64,000 nt of DNA, from positions 278,292 to 342,291 of the forward strand of contig JARJHS010000003.1 in assembly GCA_029269725.1 (NCBI GenBank), read 5' to 3'. Both the position numbers and the translations under genes were made by a program. Below the pieces are notes generated by a model. It searched no databases. It was given only the letters and a program-made list of their open reading frames with translations, and was not told the origin of the DNA. Position 1 is the first letter of the stretch. Every line of letters begins with the position of its first letter. Source of the stretch: Pollutibacter soli. Its GTDB lineage: Bacteria; Bacteroidota; Bacteroidia; Chitinophagales; Chitinophagaceae. Shown in pieces: positions 2,443-10,239 of the stretch.

Positions 2443-5022
2443 CTAGGCAGAGTTTCTTCCCGCATTGATAATCCCAAACGAACACCTCATCACCAGCTTT
2501 TCATAACTGGACTTCAAAGGAGAATTGATCAGCTTCTCCTCAAGCTCACGGACACGCGTAATCGCATACTGCTGGATTGTAAGTAACGGCAATACGATTC
2601 TTTCACGCATCTGCACGGACAACTGTTCAACCGGATAATCTGCCATGAGTTCGTTATTACCCGATATTTTAAAAATGTATTGTTTGGTCAATTCATATTC
2701 ATTGTATATCCTGTTCCAGATTTCACCATATACAGGATGATCTGAAAGAAAAGCAGTCAGCGGGAAAAAGCATTTCTTCATCGCCATCTCACAGTTATCC
2801 ATCAAGGCCTTGAAAAAAGGAGAATTTTCATACAGTTTTTTTACTTCATTAAGACGACCTGCTTCGTCTATTCTCTTCAATGCCGTACCCACGCCATAAT
2901 AACCAGTCACGTTTTGCTTCAGCTGGCTCCATGCGCCAACAAATGGAATTGCGCGCAAATCTTTTAATGATAAACGACTACCTCCACCCCTTTTCGCAGG
3001 TCTGCTACCAATATTGGTCTCCGCATAAAATCTTAATGGACTGGCATGGCCCAGGTAATCAGTAAAATAAGGGTGATCTTTTAAACTGATATAAGCCTGG
3101 TAACTGATTTCACTCAGTTCCGTTAGCAGCGCTTCTTCTTTTGCATCCAAAGTTTCCTTTTTCGAAGAAAAAAGATCATTCTGTATTCCGGCGTGTATGA
3201 GTTGCTCAATATTAAACTGGGCCGCATCGATAGTACCAAAATTGGAACTGACCGTCTGCCCCTGTATCGTAATCTGAATTTCCTTTGAAGCAATATTCTT
3301 TCCCATCGAAGAATAAAAACGATGTGTCTTTCCGCCACCACGCGCGGGAGGACCGCCGCGACCATCGAAAAACACCACCTCAATTCCATATTCTTTTGAA
3401 ATACGTGTCAGGTTTTCCTTGGCTTTGTAAATACTGAAGTTGGCCATCAGATAGCCACCATCTTTCGTGCCATCACTGAAACCCAGCATAATTGTCTGCT
3501 TATTGCCCCTTCTCCTGAGATGCTTGCTGTACAATGAATTTTCATACATTTCACGCATCACTCCTTCAGCGTTCTTCAGGTCATCTACCGTTTCAAAAAG
3601 CGGGACGATGTCTACTTTAATTTCTTCCGGTTTCCATCCACGCAATTGGAACAAAGCATATACTTCAAGAATGCTTAATGCACTATTGCTCTGACTGATA
3701 ATGTAACGCTCACAACCTTTCGGTCCATTATAACTTTGAATTTCCTTTATTACATCGATACACTGTAATGTATCCTTCACCATTGCATCATCGAAATCCT
3801 CAGCCTTCACCACATCTTTTATAGCTGATAATGCTTTTATTTTTTCATCATGAGAGAGACTTGCATAACCTGACGGGATTGCCTGTGTATGCTCAGCAAT
3901 ATAATCGAGCACCTTCGTATGTACTGAACTCTCCTGGCGTATATCGAGTGAAGCGAAATATAATCCGAACAATTCCACGCGATAAATCAGTGTATTCAGC
4001 AAACCAACAAACAAGCTGTTGTGCTGGTATATCAATGTCTCCTTAATCGAACGTAATGTGCTGAGAATCTCCTCTGCATCAAGATCGGTTTTCTGGCCTG
4101 GAATAAAGATGTTGTTGTACAGTTTCTTTTCCAGGTCGAGCAGGCTTTGCTCAACACCTTCGAAAGTAAGTCTGCGCCTGAGTTTTCTCACTTCGAGATA
4201 ATAGCATTTGATAATACTGCCACGTAACGCATCAGCTACCTTCAATGTAATATCTGAAGTGACAAAAGGATTACCATCGCGGTCGCCACCGGGCCAGAAG
4301 CCCATCTCAATTACAGGATTGGCCTCGGACATCGCATCAGGAAACTGCGATTTTAGAAAAGCAAGAATGCGGCCTGAAGCAGGATAAAAAACATTCTCGA
4401 GGTACCAGATCAAACTGATCGCTTCATCAAAAGGTGTTGGCTTTATTTTTTTGAAAAACGGAGTTTTACCAAGCTGCTGCAGATACATATTGATTTGCGA
4501 CACATTATTTTCCCCGATCGCTCTTGACAGATCATTGATGATGCCCAAAACGGCGCCAGGATAAAATTGGGTAGGGTGTGCCGTTAGTACAAGCCGGACT
4601 GCAAAATCATTCAGCTTCTGTGCGAGTTCCTCTGTTTTTCCAGTCTGCTGCACTTCACTCTCCAGATGCTTCAATGTACCTGCACCAGACATATCATTAA
4701 CATCGCGGAAAGCCGCATCTTCCAACGCATCAAAAAGTACAACCTGCCTTTCCACATATTGTACAAACCGAAACAGAACATCAAGCCTTTCCTGTTCGGA
4801 GCTGTATGATGTATGCTTGGAAAAAAACTCATCGATGATTTCCAGCGGCGTTTGTTTTCTTTTAAATCCTTCTTCGCAATTGGATTGAAGGAGAGAAAGC
4901 ATGATCCCAGTCTTCTCGATCCTATGAAAGGGCAAAGAAGTAAACAGACTGTTGTACAGCTGAAATTTGATTCCTACCTGATTTTTAAACTGCTGAAGTG
5001 CCGGAGAATTAACATTACTCAT
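2443..5022 (-). CDS. ppc: Phosphoenolpyruvate carboxylase
   Basis: 859 residues, slightly shorter than the roughly 880 of the E. coli enzyme. It carboxylates PEP with bicarbonate to oxaloacetate, an anaplerotic step that also feeds aspartate and the threonine operon next door. Visible motifs: LTAHPTQF with the catalytic His at about residue 149, GGDRDGNPFVT, the Gly/Arg-rich loop FFDGRGGPPARGGGKTHRFY, GFSDGTKDGGY and IGSRPAKR. The C-terminus is unusual: classical enzymes end in (Q/R)NTG, whereas this one ends in AGRNSA. The gene is monocistronic, transcribed away from thrA, with a terminator downstream. Confidence 0.95.
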   Translation of the reverse strand: MSNVNSPALQQFKNQVGIKFQLYNSLFTSLPFHRIEKTGIMLSLLQSNCEEGFKRKQTPLEIIDEFFSKHTSYSSEQERLDVLFRFVQYVERQVVLFDALEDAAFRDVNDMSGAGTLKHLESEVQQTGKTEELAQKLNDFAVRLVLTAHPTQFYPGAVLGIINDLSRAIGENNVSQINMYLQQLGKTPFFKKIKPTPFDEAISLIWYLENVFYPASGRILAFLKSQFPDAMSEANPVIEMGFWPGGDRDGNPFVTSDITLKVADALRGSIIKCYYLEVRKLRRRLTFEGVEQSLLDLEKKLYNNIFIPGQKTDLDAEEILSTLRSIKETLIYQHNSLFVGLLNTLIYRVELFGLYFASLDIRQESSVHTKVLDYIAEHTQAIPSGYASLSHDEKIKALSAIKDVVKAEDFDDAMVKDTLQCIDVIKEIQSYNGPKGCERYIISQSNSALSILEVYALFQLRGWKPEEIKVDIVPLFETVDDLKNAEGVMREMYENSLYSKHLRRRGNKQTIMLGFSDGTKDGGYLMANFSIYKAKENLTRISKEYGIEVVFFDGRGGPPARGGGKTHRFYSSMGKNIASKEIQITIQGQTVSSNFGTIDAAQFNIEQLIHAGIQNDLFSSKKETLDAKEEALLTELSEISYQAYISLKDHPYFTDYLGHASPLRFYAETNIGSRPAKRGGGSRLSLKDLRAIPFVGAWSQLKQNVTGYYGVGTALKRIDEAGRLNEVKKLYENSPFFKALMDNCEMAMKKCFFPLTAFLSDHPVYGEIWNRIYNEYELTKQYIFKISGNNELMADYPVEQLSVQMRERIVLPLLTIQQYAITRVRELEEKLINSPLKSSYEKLVMRCSFGIINAGRNSA

Positions 5023-5077: not shown

Positions 5078-5146
5078 GTACGCTGGGTGTAGAAAAACAG
5101 GCAAGTGAATCGAATCGCATGAAGTTAATTGAAATTTTTTGTGATA

Positions 5147-5290
5147 ATGTTGTTTTCTCAGAATTCTGTATTATCTTCAGACCCTATTTTTAGAAAATTG
5201 GAAGCAAACAAGACATATTCTTCAAAACTTCTCCGGCAGTTCACTACTGCATCGGCTTCCATTATTATTACAACTATTACAACCCGTTAA
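5147..5290 (+). CDS. Candidate Thr/Ile leader peptide upstream of thrA
   Basis: A 47-codon ORF (ATG at 5147, TAA at 5288-5290) whose last codons before Arg-stop are eight consecutive Ile/Thr codons (IIITTITT, 4 Ile and 4 Thr, 5261-5284), preceded by TTASAS. It ends 86 bases before thrA. In enterobacteria the thrABC operon is attenuated through a leader peptide made almost entirely of Thr and Ile codons, so composition and position match that logic closely. The start is uncertain; TTG at 5198 would give a 31-residue peptide. No Shine-Dalgarno sequence is clear. The peptide need not have a function beyond ribosome stalling. Assignment is inference. Confidence 0.55.
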   Translation: MLFSQNSVLSSDPIFRKLEANKTYSSKLLRQFTTASASIIITTITTR

Positions 5291-5376
5291 GGGTTGAGTA
5301 TACACATACCATCAAGGGGCTTTGGCTGTACATCCACAACAGGAAATCAAAATTTATTATCGGATAATCTCAAAAT
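5281..5376 (+). promoter_or_regulatory. thrA leader region with a hairpin over the leader-peptide stop
   Basis: AACCC (5281-5285) can pair with GGGTT (5291-5295) across the TAA stop of the candidate leader peptide. Just upstream GCAGT (5236-5240) can pair with ACTGC (5246-5250). These could be alternative stem elements, but I see no canonical GC stem plus T-tract before thrA. If attenuation operates, it may act on translation initiation or by a non-canonical or Rho-linked terminator. Confidence 0.35.
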
Positions 5377-7821
5377 ATGCAGGTCTTAAAATTCGGCGGT
5401 AGTTCAGTAGGTAGCGCGGAAACCATAAAGAAAGTGATCAGTATTGTCTCAGCAAGAAAAAACCGGGGAAAAGCTTTTGTAGTTGTTTCTGCCATGAGCG
5501 GTACAACAGATGCTTTATTGAATTGCGGTGCATTAGCGGCAGCAGGAAATGAGGAATACAAAGAAATTCTCCAGCAAATAGAACAACGCCATCTTGAAGC
5601 GGTAAAAGAACTTGTACCGGTTCAGCAGCAGAGCGCTACGCTGAGTCTCGTTAAAACCATCTGTAACGAGATGGAAGATATCTGTACTGGTGCTTTTCTC
5701 CTCGGTGAACTTTCACCGCGAACTAAGGACCGCGTCGTCAGTTATGGAGAACTGCTTTCATCCCAAATGATTGCTGCTGCTTTCAGAAGTGCGGGACACT
5801 CTGTTGAATGGAAAGATGCGAGGCAACTCATCCGCACCAATGCAAATTTTGGAAATGCAATTGTCGATTTTGAAGCGAGCAATGCTTTGATCGATGCTTT
5901 CAACAAAAATTGCAATGCAGAGATTATCCTGGTACCTGGATTTATTGCTTCCGAAAGTCATGGTGCTACAACTACGCTTGGTAGAGGCGGATCGGATTAT
6001 ACTGCTGCCATTCTCGCGGCTGCACTCGATGTGGCTATCCTTGAAATATGGACGGATGTTTCCGGGATGATGACAGCCGATCCACGCTGGGTGAGCAATG
6101 TGAGGATCATTCCGAACATCTCTTACCAGGAAGCAATGGAGCTGAGTCATTTCGGCGCGAAGGTGATCTACCCTCCTACTATTCAACCCGTAATGACCAG
6201 GAAAATTCCTGTGTGGATCAAAAATACTTTCGCACCTGATGATGCAGGTACTGTGATTGAGAATGATGCAGCTTCACCGAATGGCGATATCATCCGTGGT
6301 ATCAGCAGTATTAACCAGATCGCGCTACTGAGTCTTGAAGGTAGCGGCATGGTGGGTGTACCTGGATTTTCTAAACGTTTGTTTGAAGCCTTAGCTTCTT
6401 CCCAGATAAATGTTATTCTCATTACGCAAGGATCCTCAGAACATTCGATATGCGTAGGTATCGAAGCCGGTGCTGCCAGTAAAGCTAAGGATGTTGTTGA
6501 TGCTGCTTTTCATGTGGAAATTGCACTCGGAAAAGTAAACCCGTTGGTGATAGAAAAAGATCTGTCCATCATAGCGCTCGTGGGAGAGAATATGAAAAAT
6601 CACCCCGGTATCAGCGGCAGAATGTTTGGTGCCCTGGGTCGAAACGGAGTGAATGTAAGAGCAATTGCGCAGGGTTCATCTGAAAGAAATATATCCGCTG
6701 TCTTGGCTACTGCGGAAATCAAAGAAGCACTGAATATTCTTCACGAAGAATTTTTTGAAACTGCATATAAACAGGTCAATCTTTTTGTAACAGGTACGGG
6801 AAATGTGGGAAGTAAATTGTTGGATCAGATAAAACAACAACAGAAGTACCTGGCGGAACATCGCCGGTTACAGATCCGGGTGATTGGTCTTGCCAACAGC
6901 AGAAAAATGCTGTTCAGTAAAGAAGGAATACAACTGAGCAACTGGAAAGAGCAGTTGGATAAAGGCGAAAAAGCAGATATCAATCAGTTCGCTGATCAGG
7001 TCATTCAACGCAATCTGCGTAATACGGTGTTCGTGGATATAACCGCGAGCAGTGATGTGGCAGGAATTTATGATAAGCTGTTACGCAAATCGATGACCAT
7101 CGTTGCATGTAATAAAATTGCAGCATCTTCTGCTTACCCGGAATACAGAAAATTAAAAGATCTCGCAAGAGAATTCAATTGCAGGTTCCTTTTTGAAACA
7201 AATGTTGGTGCCGGACTACCGGTGATCGGTACACTAAACGATCTTATATCCAGTGGTGATCAGATCAACAGGATTGAAGCCGTGCTTTCAGGAACCCTGA
7301 ATTTTGTGTTCAACAATTACGATGCAACTGTCCCATTTTCAGACATCGTAAAAAGAGCACAGGAGGAAGGTTATACTGAGCCGGATCCACGACTTGATTT
7401 AAGCGGGACCGATGTGATGCGCAAGATCATGATCCTCGCACGCGAAGCTGGTGAAAAACTCGAGATGGAAGATATCACCTGCCGTGCATTTCTTCCCGAA
7501 TCCTGTATGCAGGGTTCAGTAGATGATTTCTATAAGGAAATGAAAAAGCAGGAAGACCATTTTAAATCTATTTACGAAGCAGCAAAAGCAGCAGGAAGTA
7601 AACTGAAATTTGTTGCATCTTTTAATCGTGGAAAGGCGGAAGTCGGACTACAGCATATTTCCCCGCAACATGATCTGTTCCATCTTTATGGCAAGGATAA
7701 CATCGTTCTATTTTATACTGAACGCTATCCCGAACAACCGATGGTCATCAAAGGTGCTGGTGCAGGCGCCGATGTAACGGCGAGCGGGGTTTTTGCTGAT
7801 GTGATGAGAGCTGCGAACTAA
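5377..7821 (+). CDS. thrA: Bifunctional aspartate kinase / homoserine dehydrogenase
   Basis: 814 residues, the usual length for the fused ThrA/MetL type. The N-terminal aspartate kinase starts MQVLKFGGSSVGS and contains TTLGRGGSDYTA. Two ACT-type regulatory segments follow at about residues 315-460. The C-terminal homoserine dehydrogenase begins near residue 470 with the nucleotide-binding GTGNVGS and includes NVGAGLPVIGTL, SGTLNFVFNNY and EGYTEPDPRLDLSGTDVMRK. It catalyses the first and third steps from aspartate to threonine/methionine. It heads a thrABC operon and is preceded by a candidate Thr/Ile leader peptide, fitting feedback by threonine. Start at 5377 is supported by the canonical N-terminus. 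Confidence 0.96.
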   Translation: MQVLKFGGSSVGSAETIKKVISIVSARKNRGKAFVVVSAMSGTTDALLNCGALAAAGNEEYKEILQQIEQRHLEAVKELVPVQQQSATLSLVKTICNEMEDICTGAFLLGELSPRTKDRVVSYGELLSSQMIAAAFRSAGHSVEWKDARQLIRTNANFGNAIVDFEASNALIDAFNKNCNAEIILVPGFIASESHGATTTLGRGGSDYTAAILAAALDVAILEIWTDVSGMMTADPRWVSNVRIIPNISYQEAMELSHFGAKVIYPPTIQPVMTRKIPVWIKNTFAPDDAGTVIENDAASPNGDIIRGISSINQIALLSLEGSGMVGVPGFSKRLFEALASSQINVILITQGSSEHSICVGIEAGAASKAKDVVDAAFHVEIALGKVNPLVIEKDLSIIALVGENMKNHPGISGRMFGALGRNGVNVRAIAQGSSERNISAVLATAEIKEALNILHEEFFETAYKQVNLFVTGTGNVGSKLLDQIKQQQKYLAEHRRLQIRVIGLANSRKMLFSKEGIQLSNWKEQLDKGEKADINQFADQVIQRNLRNTVFVDITASSDVAGIYDKLLRKSMTIVACNKIAASSAYPEYRKLKDLAREFNCRFLFETNVGAGLPVIGTLNDLISSGDQINRIEAVLSGTLNFVFNNYDATVPFSDIVKRAQEEGYTEPDPRLDLSGTDVMRKIMILAREAGEKLEMEDITCRAFLPESCMQGSVDDFYKEMKKQEDHFKSIYEAAKAAGSKLKFVASFNRGKAEVGLQHISPQHDLFHLYGKDNIVLFYTERYPEQPMVIKGAGAGADVTASGVFADVMRAAN

Positions 7822-7854: not shown

Positions 7855-7984
7855 TAAATGTTATACGTTTAACGTTAAACGTTAGCTTCGACAATGGCGA
7901 AAGCATTTACAATAGCAGAGTCCAGACTGTGGGTGAAAGACGATGAATGAACAACGAAAAACGAAGAACGAACAACGAAGAACA
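7855..7984. repeat. Degenerate word arrays in the thrA-thrB gap
   Basis: Two arrays lie here: an AACGTT-type array (TACGTTTAACGTTAAACGTT, about 7862-7881) and a GAACAACGAA-type array running to the thrB start codon (GAACAACGAAAAACGAAGAA and onward). The second array is in frame with thrB and creates a spurious upstream ATG at 7943. Confidence 0.6.
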
Positions 7985-8917
7985 ATGAAATCAAAAAATA
8001 CCATCACCATCGCTGCGCCCGCGACAGTAGCCAACCTGGTTTGTGGATTTGACATTCTCGGTATGGCTTTGAATGAACCGGCTGATATCATGAAGATAAC
8101 AGTAAGTGATAAACCGGGCCTGAAGATCACCCATACTGATGACTATGGACTTTCTACTGTGCCGGAGAAAAATGTTGCCGGCGTTTCATTGCTCGCAATG
8201 ATGGAAGAACTTCCTGCAGGTACTGGCTTTGAACTTGAGATCTGTAAGAATATTATGCCCGGTAGCGGTCTTGGTTCAAGTGCTGCCAGCGCTGCGGGTG
8301 CAGTGGCCGCTGCTAATCTTTTACTGGAAAAACCGTTCAGCGAATCTGATCTTGTCAGGTTTGCCATGAACGGAGAAAAACTCGCCAGCGGGGTTAAACA
8401 TGCAGATAATATTGCACCCTGCATTTCCGGAGGTATCACACTGATACGTTCTATTCATCCCTTGGATATTATCAGTCTTCCCGCTCCGCCCCTATACGTT
8501 ACTGTTGTACACCCTCAAATTGAAGTAAAAACTTCTGATGCGCGTCAAATTCTTAGAAAGGAAGTTCCTTTGAAAAATGCCATCAGGCAATGGGGAAATA
8601 TTGCCGGGCTTGTTGCAGGTTTTATGCAATCGGATTATGATCTGATCGGAAGATCGCTTGAAGATGTGATCATCGAACCGGTGAGAAGTATTCTTATTCC
8701 GGGTTTCGATGATGTTAAGAAACGCTGCAAGGAAGCTGGTGCACTCGGTGGTGGTATATCAGGAAGCGGACCGTCAATTTTTATGCTGAACAAAGAAGAA
8801 AAAACAGCACTTGAAGTAAGATCGATCATGGAAGATATCTATAATACACTCGGGATCGAAACACGTATCTATGTCACTACCATGAATCAGAAGGGCGTGA
8901 AAATCATCAATGATTAA
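7985..8917 (+). CDS. thrB: Homoserine kinase
   Basis: 310 residues with the start at 7985 (MKSKNTITIAAPATVANL). A longer ORF from 7943 would add 14 residues encoded entirely by a degenerate intergenic repeat, so it is rejected. GHMP-kinase fold: the substrate-binding N-terminus is followed by the ATP-binding loop PGSGLGSSAASAAGA at about residues 90-105, and the C-terminal GGGISGSGPSIF. It phosphorylates homoserine at the expense of ATP. It sits between thrA (163 bp gap, repeat-filled) and thrC (23 bp gap), as expected for a threonine operon. Confidence 0.95.
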   Translation: MKSKNTITIAAPATVANLVCGFDILGMALNEPADIMKITVSDKPGLKITHTDDYGLSTVPEKNVAGVSLLAMMEELPAGTGFELEICKNIMPGSGLGSSAASAAGAVAAANLLLEKPFSESDLVRFAMNGEKLASGVKHADNIAPCISGGITLIRSIHPLDIISLPAPPLYVTVVHPQIEVKTSDARQILRKEVPLKNAIRQWGNIAGLVAGFMQSDYDLIGRSLEDVIIEPVRSILIPGFDDVKKRCKEAGALGGGISGSGPSIFMLNKEEKTALEVRSIMEDIYNTLGIETRIYVTTMNQKGVKIIND

Positions 8918-8940: not shown

Positions 8941-10239
8941 ATGCAATATTATAGCCTGAATCATAATGCCCCGGATGTCGATTTCAAGACTGCCACGCTC
9001 TACGGGCAGGCGCCAGACAAAGGACTTTATTTTCCTAAATACATCCCTCGCTTTTCCGAAAAATTTCTTCAGAATCTCAGTACGCTGTCTTCTGAAGAAA
9101 TTGGTGTTGAAGTAATCAGGCCCTATATTGAAAATGAAATTCCGGAAGCAGATCTGAAAAGAATTGTCTCTGAGACTTTGAATTTTCCGATTCCGCTGGT
9201 GCCTGTTAATGATAACATCTGGTCGCTGGAACTATACCATGGACCTACACTCGCCTTCAAAGATATCGGCGCAAGATTCATGAGTCGCTGCCTTGGTTAT
9301 TTTGCAAAACAGATTGAAAAAAGAATCGTCGTACTTGTCGCAACAAGCGGTGATACCGGTGGCGCAGTTGCTCATGGTTTCTATGATGTTCCGGGAATTG
9401 ATGTTGTCATTCTTTATCCATCAGGAAAAGTAAGTCCTGTCCAGGAAAAACAATTAACTACGCTTGGAAAAAATATTCACGCACTCGAAGTGAAAGGAAA
9501 CTTTGATGATTGTCAGCGCATGGTGAAACAGGCATTTACTGATAAAGAACTTACTGAAAATATTTTTCTTACTTCTGCGAATTCGATTAATGTTGCCCGC
9601 TGGTTACCGCAACAGTTTTATTATTTACTGGCTTTGAAACAATGGAACCAGGCACAGCCACCGGTCATTTCTGTTCCCAGCGGAAATTTTGGGAATATCT
9701 GTGCGGGGCTTCTTGCAAATGCATCCGGTATGCCAGTCGATCATTTTGTTGCCGCTGTGAATATGAATGATGTTGTTCCCCGGTATTTTGAAACGAAGCG
9801 CTACGAACCACTTCCTGCAAAAGCAACATTATCCAACGCGATGGATGTTGGTGACCCGAGTAACTTCATTCGTGTAAGAGAAATTTTCCACGATTCTTTT
9901 CCCGGCCTGAGTGAGAAAATGAGTTCAGAAAAATTCACTGATCAGCAGACAGAAGCCGCAATTGAAAAAGTATACCAGGCCTTTCATTATACATTGGATC
10001 CTCATGGAGCCGTGGCATTTCTGGGTCTTGATTCCTATCTCAAAAAACACCCAGGGAAGAAGGGCTTCATTCTCGAGACAGCCCATCCCGTGAAATTTCC
10101 GGAAAGCGTAGAAAGAATCACAGGCACAAAAATTCCGATACCGGAACATGTACAACCGATCATGTCGGCACAGAAGAAATCCATTTTAATCGATCCTGAT
10201 TATGTTCAGCTAAAACAAAGCTTATCCAGCTTATTTTGA
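8941..10239 (+). CDS. thrC: Threonine synthase
   Basis: 432 residues. This PLP enzyme converts O-phosphohomoserine to threonine, the last step of the operon. Visible: an N-terminal segment around YGQAPDKGLYFP, the PLP-lysine segment YHGPTLAFKDIGARFM at about residue 100, the glycine-rich phosphate loop ATSGDTGGAVAHGF, and SVPSGNFGNICAG. Length and motifs fit the class of threonine synthase found in E. coli and Bacteroidota. It follows thrB by 23 bp in the same direction. Confidence 0.96.
   Translation: MQYYSLNHNAPDVDFKTATLYGQAPDKGLYFPKYIPRFSEKFLQNLSTLSSEEIGVEVIRPYIENEIPEADLKRIVSETLNFPIPLVPVNDNIWSLELYHGPTLAFKDIGARFMSRCLGYFAKQIEKRIVVLVATSGDTGGAVAHGFYDVPGIDVVILYPSGKVSPVQEKQLTTLGKNIHALEVKGNFDDCQRMVKQAFTDKELTENIFLTSANSINVARWLPQQFYYLLALKQWNQAQPPVISVPSGNFGNICAGLLANASGMPVDHFVAAVNMNDVVPRYFETKRYEPLPAKATLSNAMDVGDPSNFIRVREIFHDSFPGLSEKMSSEKFTDQQTEAAIEKVYQAFHYTLDPHGAVAFLGLDSYLKKHPGKKGFILETAHPVKFPESVERITGTKIPIPEHVQPIMSAQKKSILIDPDYVQLKQSLSSLF

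Follow-up and report, generated by a model that had tools for sequence, protein, structure and literature searches.

Leader-peptide attenuation is the standard example of how transcription and translation are coupled, and a terminator/antiterminator pair is usually part of its definition. The attenuator of the enterobacterial thr operon (thrL; Rfam family Thr_leader) places a leader peptide of Thr and Ile codons before thrABC. Two further Escherichia coli systems depend on where the ribosome sits: at pyrBI it occludes a terminator hairpin, a true intrinsic terminator, and at tnaCAB it occludes a Rho site beside the leader stop codon, with tnaC sensing free Trp via the nascent chain. For Bacteroidota, a trp cis-element, the Bacteroid-trp RNA (RF01692), has been reported (PMC2864571), and leader-peptide attenuation of amino-acid operons has been reported in Flavobacterium psychrophilum (PMC9723704), where section 19 of that article names no thr example. 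Amino-acid leader-peptide control in this phylum is already known in general, and the thr layout described below differs from the classic one.

The locus studied here lies in a 64-kb window, by which we mean the whole stretch of DNA analysed (positions 278292-342291 of its contig, in a 6.1-Mb genome; positions below count from the first letter of the window). Its genes thrA, thrB and thrC adjoin one another (Table 1), and divergent to thrA lies a PEP-carboxylase-like gene (2443-5022) that scores below the cut-off of its family model, which covers mostly the second half. The thrA relatives closest to that of the window (best 80 of 427) come mostly from Chitinophagaceae MAGs and strains. An earlier note on this DNA had pointed to a 47-codon ORF running from ATG 5147 to the TAA at 5288-5290, 86 bases before the thrA ATG at 5377, and the reading frame is as described. 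Its 3' end reads ATT ATT ATT ACA ACT ATT ACA ACC CGT TAA (IIITTITTR and stop); when the window's 300 nt upstream of thrA were shuffled 5000 times with dinucleotides preserved, a run of 8 Thr/Ile per 10 codons arose twice.

Table 1 Features of the thr leader and operon in the window (window positions)
Feature	Position	Strand	Basis
Candidate Bacteroidota-type promoter, TTG-N19-TATCTTCA	5150..5179	+	sole full match in the window's leader region
Leader ORF, likely start TTG, MEANKTYSSKLLRQFTTASASIIITTITTR and stop	5198..5290	+	promoter match and starts in relatives
Upstream CATAT element within leader ORF	5214..5218	+	enriched over codon shuffles
P0 hairpin, GCAGT-TCACT-ACTGC, in the leader 5' of the Thr/Ile run	5236..5250	+	fold
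Thr/Ile codon run (III TT I TT), putative sensor	5261..5284	+	ORF reading and in-frame conservation
P1 hairpin, CAACCC-GTTAA-GGGTTG; stop codon in loop, last Thr codons in 5' arm	5280..5296	+	
Downstream YATAY element, CATAC in the window, CATAT in most relatives	5305..5309	+	8 nt after P1
P2 candidate mini-hairpin, GGC-TTTG-GCT	5318..5327	+	sequence GGGC...GCTG conserved
thrA, bifunctional aspartokinase/homoserine dehydrogenase I	5377..7821	+	NCBIfam NF006959, 1042 bits, cut-off 726
thrB, homoserine kinase	7943..8917	+	NCBIfam NF002288, 384 bits, cut-off 194
thrC, threonine synthase	8941..10239	+	NCBIfam TIGR00260, 281 bits, cut-off 167

The earlier note had proposed testing whether the run is conserved with its frame and with synonymous changes, and had named the loss of run or frame in homologues as the outcome that would speak against it. 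Among the best 80 of 427 thrA relatives the Thr/Ile leader is kept in 75 (L077 counted among the carriers), three are without a leader (L065, L082 and L083), and in two the contig breaks off upstream of the gene, 78 and 107 nt from thrA (L016 and L017, the former retaining the 3' part of the element). The 69 leaders in the standard register, a set that omits six leaders with a displaced stop or run, show such conservation: Thr and Ile account for 80.5% of codons -11 to -3 in frame and for 1.0% and 1.8% in the other frames, and the entropy at codon positions 1, 2 and 3 of the run is 0.66, 0.98 and 1.48 bits, the third position being the most variable. In-frame Thr/Ile conservation combined with synonymous changes reflects selection on the amino acids of that frame. 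Runs of at least 7 Thr/Ile in 10 codons were found in 71 of 79 thrA upstream regions (window included, the two cut ones omitted), compared with 1.8% of 1580 shuffles and 4 of 60 hisG/trpE upstream regions; at a threshold of at least 8 in 10 the corresponding values are 58 of 79, 0.3% of 1580 and 1 of 60. Ile codons within the runs are ATT in 89% of 106 cases, compared with 46% in the thrA genes, and ATA is almost absent, a bias that may reflect which codon best senses starvation. At the level of sequence, the observation of a Thr/Ile leader in front of the thr operon is thus confirmed, and the leader is conserved in frame.

Scans of further members of the window's family found the leader in L100 and no leader in L091, L092, L099, L102 and L138; L089 is without the start of thrA. 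In L082 and L083, the leaderless thrA lies directly behind another gene whose end resembles, by eye, a threonine dehydratase, and the leader may be lost where thrA is not the first gene of its operon. The analyses below use, unless stated otherwise, a non-redundant set of 62 out of 76 leaders (less than 80% ungapped identity, window included).

The start codon is the part of the earlier description that did not hold up well. The full promoter pattern of Table 1 occurs in 26 of the 62 leaders (6.1 expected from base shuffling), and a -7-like box in 28 (12.9 expected), with 25 of 29 box occurrences placed 92-114 nt ahead of the leader stop; the Bacteroides promoter consensus is given as TAnnTTTG, with TTTG near -33 (PMC7366714). 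Since the window's match begins directly 3' of ATG 5147, an mRNA made from this promoter would exclude that codon, which makes it an unlikely true start and the 47-codon length doubtful. The in-frame TTG at 5198, which would give a peptide of 30 aa, is the likelier leader start, a placement that draws on the promoter match and on relatives. Under a crude rule that takes the farthest in-frame start at most 40 nt before the upstream CATAY, 50 rows yielded GTG in 19, TTG in 17, ATG in 13 and no start in 1. A palindrome, TAAC-N4-GTTA, occurs in 12 of the 62 leaders at 80-220 nt 5' of the leader stop (L007, L010, L012, L023, L039, L043, L054, L056, L058, L070, L071 and L072) and is absent from the window; it overlaps the presumed -33 region in some of these leaders and looks like an operator of some lineages.

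The hairpin that the earlier note had seen overlapping the stop codon is present and is here called P1. A P1-type hairpin at or just before the stop codon occurs in all 62 leaders, compared with 7.8% of shuffles, and in 35-nt windows it folds on average 7.5 kcal/mol better than shuffled sequence. Its sequence varies, being ACAACCC-GTTAA-GGGTTGT in many relatives, ACAATCCGC-TAA-GCGGATTGT in others, and different again in L008, L009, L024 and L068. Five relatives (L033, L037, L053, L069 and L081) keep the position of P1 with the stop codon 3' of the hairpin, so that the hairpin is more strongly conserved than the placement of the stop codon. At one P1 pair, a C-G/U-A double change is seen in 17 of 44 rows. 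The earlier note had proposed a check of the leader RNA for covariation. When pairs of the named structure were counted, the paired cells, the double-changed cells and the overall covariation score exceeded all 500 shuffles, whereas no excess was seen in how many pairs showed a double change (180 of 500 shuffles as high) or in the number of pair types (485 of 500). Alignment A2 comprises 45 of 75 rows, picked by eye for similar length. RNAalifold returned no structure for the first alignment, in which variable loops shift the arms out of register. Folded as a single sequence, the window's leader does not outperform shuffles (z -0.59); it is the family comparison that supports structure.

Outside P1, windows at the P0 site fold better than shuffles by a mean of -2.3 kcal/mol (t = -6.8; 62 leaders), and a weak and variable hairpin further downstream, P3, does so by approximately 1 kcal/mol (62 leaders). 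The candidate P2 pairs weakly, with three pairs and one-sided changes only, and windows reaching from the CATAT motif into GGGC...GCTG fold like shuffles or worse (62 leaders), from which it follows that the motif is kept open and that P2 is doubtful as a hairpin; conservation of this sequence without folding hints at a bound factor. A pairing scan comparing matched arms with arms permuted between species supported the local hairpins P3, P1 and P0. Over its 351 region pairs, no antiterminator pairing rose above chance, although weak or short alternatives could be missed; the strongest off-diagonal signal, between the leader start region and the 3' side of P0 (z -2.5), is within chance for 351 pairs. 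A pairing of the leader start with the downstream CATAT region, sought by eye, was likewise unsupported by the scan.

Downstream of P1, a YATAY element follows within 26 nt in all 62 leaders, at a distance of 6-9 nt in 51 of them and of 7-8 nt in 33. Hairpin and YATAY occur together in 2.3% of shuffles for the window's family and in 0.7-2.4% over the families. The order 3' of P1 is spacer, CATATYA and GGGC-N-GCTG, and the 10 nt ahead of the downstream motif consist of 48% T. A second, upstream CATAT copy is found within the leader ORF in 43 of the 62 leaders, compared with a mean of 12.6 and a maximum of 22 in 300 codon shuffles; as it occurs in two main reading frames, it is conserved as nucleic acid. 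This copy has no preceding hairpin, and a pause at P1 does not explain it. Other families show no clear enrichment of it (3 of 24 with 3.6 expected, 3 of 18 with 1.2 expected and 0 of 27 with 2.2 expected). The two copies are separated by 74 to 108 nt (50 leaders), a variable distance that disfavours DNA looping between them. A covariance model of the element, R1, found in the same genome, besides the thr locus, matches in coding sequence (L116, L117 and L118) or at a terminator-like hairpin (L115). Among 295 genomes sampled from the class, it gave five matches at E<=0.01, namely the window's own genome, L119 and L120 from genomes of the window's family, and L121 and L122, which are weak and were taken for chance; this search was strictly filtered and missed at least one genome bearing the element (G044, L098).

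A canonical T-tract terminator, which the earlier note had not seen, was also not detected by our terminator scan of the window, nor in 67 of the 76 thr leaders. The scan was passed by 9 of 76 thr leaders (1 of 380 shuffles), in eight of which P1 is the first hairpin, compared with 28 of 30 hisG and 27 of 30 trpE upstream regions. In the window's family, these hisG and trpE regions (L175-L234; L176 and L233 in the window's own genome) carry leaders with at least 3 His codons in 27 of 30 loci and at least 2 Trp codons in 29 of 30, respectively. By eye, his leaders (e.g., HIHHHH) place GGTAAGCC ahead of a GGCTTACC...GGTAAGCC-T-tract hairpin, and trp leaders (WWW) place CGGGG ahead of CCCCG...CGGGG-T-tract, so that both appear to use the classic choice between antiterminator and terminator. 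The window's family thus possesses classic his and trp attenuators, and its thr leader is built differently. For ilvD, no comparable leader was found in 22 loci (40 genomes searched, 27 with a match); the highest score, 8 of 10 Ile/Val/Leu, came from L145, outside the window's family.

To extend the comparison beyond this family, we searched the class and found a close thrA (E<=1e-120) in 31 of 149 sampled genomes, with Thr/Ile leaders in several other families. Three of these families (f75, f36 and f61) were sampled further with 30-31 loci each, a leader being counted only if it had at least 6 Thr/Ile in 10 codons. The 23 leaders of f75 show a hairpin at the stop codon in 19 cases, YATAY in 18 and a terminator in 1; the 17 leaders of f36 show them in 14, 11 and 4, respectively; and the 27 leaders of f61 in 5, 2 and 25. 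In f36, 11 of the 14 hairpins are ACGGG-loop-CCCGT or nearly so, with the strands swapped relative to the window, and YATAY lies 9-10 nt 3' of the hairpin in 8 of the 11 leaders having it. Many f61 leaders carry, after the run, GGAGGAAG, which by eye can pair with the terminator arm CTTCCTCC, that is, the classic architecture. Two f61 loci, L321 and L322, have the hairpin and motif in place of the terminator. Three f61 loci have a thrA that clusters with those of the window's family and f75, apart from the remaining f61 sequences, and L321 and L322 are among these three; this suggests that the leader travelled with the operon, possibly by transfer.

In a tally of 116 rows, 55 have only the hairpin with YATAY, 29 only the terminator, 1 both and 31 neither (Fisher p 1.3e-9), where the 25 rows of the window's family are 24 random members plus the window, all picked as leader-bearing. 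On the thrA tree, a quick tree in which some f36 branches are long, the terminator type requires 4 changes, while 21 are needed for the hairpin type, of which many lead to 'none', a class that is overcounted because the threshold of at least 6 in 10 drops shorter runs such as TTTPLG and stop. On these sequence comparisons, the thr leader of the window is not isolated, other families carrying either a stop-codon hairpin or a classic terminator.

Building upon this comparison, which covers the leader, its run and frame, P1, the spacing, the motif, the rarity of terminators and the near-exclusion with classic terminators, we read the locus, with a probability slightly better than even, as ribosome-stall attenuation of thrABC in which the sensor is classic and the switch is not. 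The reading as thr attenuation given in the earlier note thus survives with respect to the Thr/Ile leader conserved in frame and the lack of a canonical terminator, but not with respect to its 47-codon start. Sensing by a leader peptide is very probable, and P1 is probably the switch. Stalling, the direction of control, pausing and a part for Rho are steps that we infer, as follows. A short ORF from about TTG 5198 would be translated once the leader RNA emerges. A shortage of charged tRNA-Thr or tRNA-Ile would stall the ribosome on the Thr/Ile run; because the last Thr codons form part of the 5' arm of P1, the stalled ribosome would keep the hairpin open, and RNA polymerase would proceed into thrA (ON). 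With both amino acids in good supply, the ribosome would reach the stop codon, which lies in the P1 loop, and depart, and P1 would close roughly 10-13 nt behind RNA polymerase; closed P1 together with CATAT would then halt transcription (OFF). The halt would most likely be a hairpin-stabilised pause, converted to termination by a factor such as Rho. Occlusion by the ribosome would do the job of an antiterminator, which is then not needed.

Pause plus Rho as the off-step we propose tentatively, at somewhat less than an even chance. Because there is no U-tract behind P1, a factor is expected, with Rho as the first candidate. Rho sites are C-rich and G-poor, as is the leader RNA before P1 outside P0, a C-richness that partly follows from the Thr codons themselves. 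In Bacteroides, Rho is known to be active (PMC13269538). The P1-motif spacing puts the motif about at the RNA 3' end for a hairpin 10 nt upstream, the pause spacer described for E. coli (PMC9291695). In the same account, a hairpin-stabilised pause was proposed for E. coli thrL1 from its response to NusA, and a mutation in the 5' arm changed the pause little; the parallel with P1/CATAT is a loose analogy. By eye, the motif does not match the pause consensus G-10 Y-1 G+1 given there, which is that of E. coli.

Several other explanations have to be weighed against this attenuator. The stall might act post-transcriptionally, on thrA translation or mRNA stability, with P1-CATAT-GGGC as a site for a binding protein or a nuclease, covered or uncovered by the stalled ribosome, and with transcription not being terminated. 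The conservation of CATATYA, GGGC and GCTG beyond pairing and the presence of an upstream CATAT copy, all of which resemble binding sites, would fit such a role, as would the rarity of terminators in thr leaders; however, the scan found no above-chance pairing of the element with the sequence leading up to thrA, that sequence is unstructured and by eye not conserved, and the layout replaces a transcription terminator in sister lineages, so that we consider this explanation rather improbable. Still less credit can be given to a weak intrinsic terminator in which P1 or the variable P3, together with a T-rich stretch, terminates without any factor. The T content ahead of the downstream motif (48% in 10 nt), the excess of thr leaders passing the scan over shuffles (9 of 76 against 1 of 380), the support for P3 as a hairpin and, by eye, T-rich sequence behind P3 in some relatives point towards it, but the same scan that accepts nearly all hisG and trpE regions (28 of 30 and 27 of 30) accepts few thr leaders and none in the window, the other families of hairpin type pass in 1 of 23 and 4 of 17 cases, and antiterminator pairing is not above chance, all of which makes this version unlikely.

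The CATAT elements could also be the sites of a dedicated RNA- or DNA-binding threonine regulator, the leader peptide then forming a second, independent layer. Two copies flank the run in the window's family, and the next model matches in the same genome fall in coding sequence or at a terminator-like hairpin; against this, the variable distance between the copies (74-108 nt in 50 leaders) speaks against DNA looping and the upstream copy is not clearly enriched in other families, and we regard such a regulator as very unlikely. That the element is chance or low-complexity sequence without function is hardly conceivable: an ORF by itself in an AT-rich region proves no function, but in-frame conservation and the fold, hairpin and shuffle comparisons contradict this explanation.

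Considering the ribosome-stall attenuator more broadly, we judge the chances to be evenly balanced that Bacteroidota thr operons harbour a widespread and undescribed switch, consisting of a stop-codon hairpin and YATAT at a near-fixed distance, opened by a stalled leader ribosome sitting on the hairpin, working without intrinsic terminator or antiterminator, and replacing the classic terminator in several families, with the polarity of the hairpin reversed in one of them. Searches of open-licence PMC papers turned up no thr leader that lacks a terminator and combines a stop-codon hairpin with CATAT; Lopatovskaya et al. 2010, outside that scope, may list Bacteroidota thr leaders. In these thr leaders the sensor is kept, and the terminator/antiterminator pair has apparently been replaced in several families of one class. 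As the classic his and trp attenuators of the window's family serve as internal controls, a polymerase stop without a U-tract, and the part of Rho in it, become directly testable. Tools that seek terminators will miss such regulation.

Searches with known RNA families place the leader outside them. The Rfam model Thr_leader has no match in the whole window at its gathering score or in 5100-5450 at E<=10; no Rfam family exceeds its gathering score on the leader, the sole match to 5100-5450 at E<=10 being an unrelated lncRNA (E 4.4). The Bacteroid-trp RNA RF01692 reaches at best 28.9 bits in the window's own genome, below its gathering score of 49 and opposite a coding region, and leaves the window's leader unmatched.

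In conclusion, the locus resembles enterobacterial thrL in having a Thr/Ile leader before thrABC with a bifunctional aspartokinase/homoserine dehydrogenase and in its presumed sensing of Thr and Ile. It differs from thrL in that an intrinsic terminator was not found in the window and 67 of 76 leaders, and in that the window's stop codon stands in or beside a hairpin whose 5' arm consists of the last Thr codons. The his and trp leaders of the window's family likewise carry a run of end-product codons (HHHH, WWW) before hisG and trpE but, unlike the thr leader, continue in most loci into intrinsic terminators with T-tracts. The f61 thr leaders share the Thr/Ile run ahead of thrA and, unlike the window, have an intrinsic terminator in 25 of 27 cases. 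With pyrBI and tnaCAB, the proposed switch would have in common that the position of the ribosome rather than an antiterminator decides, whereas the signal and the peptide differ.
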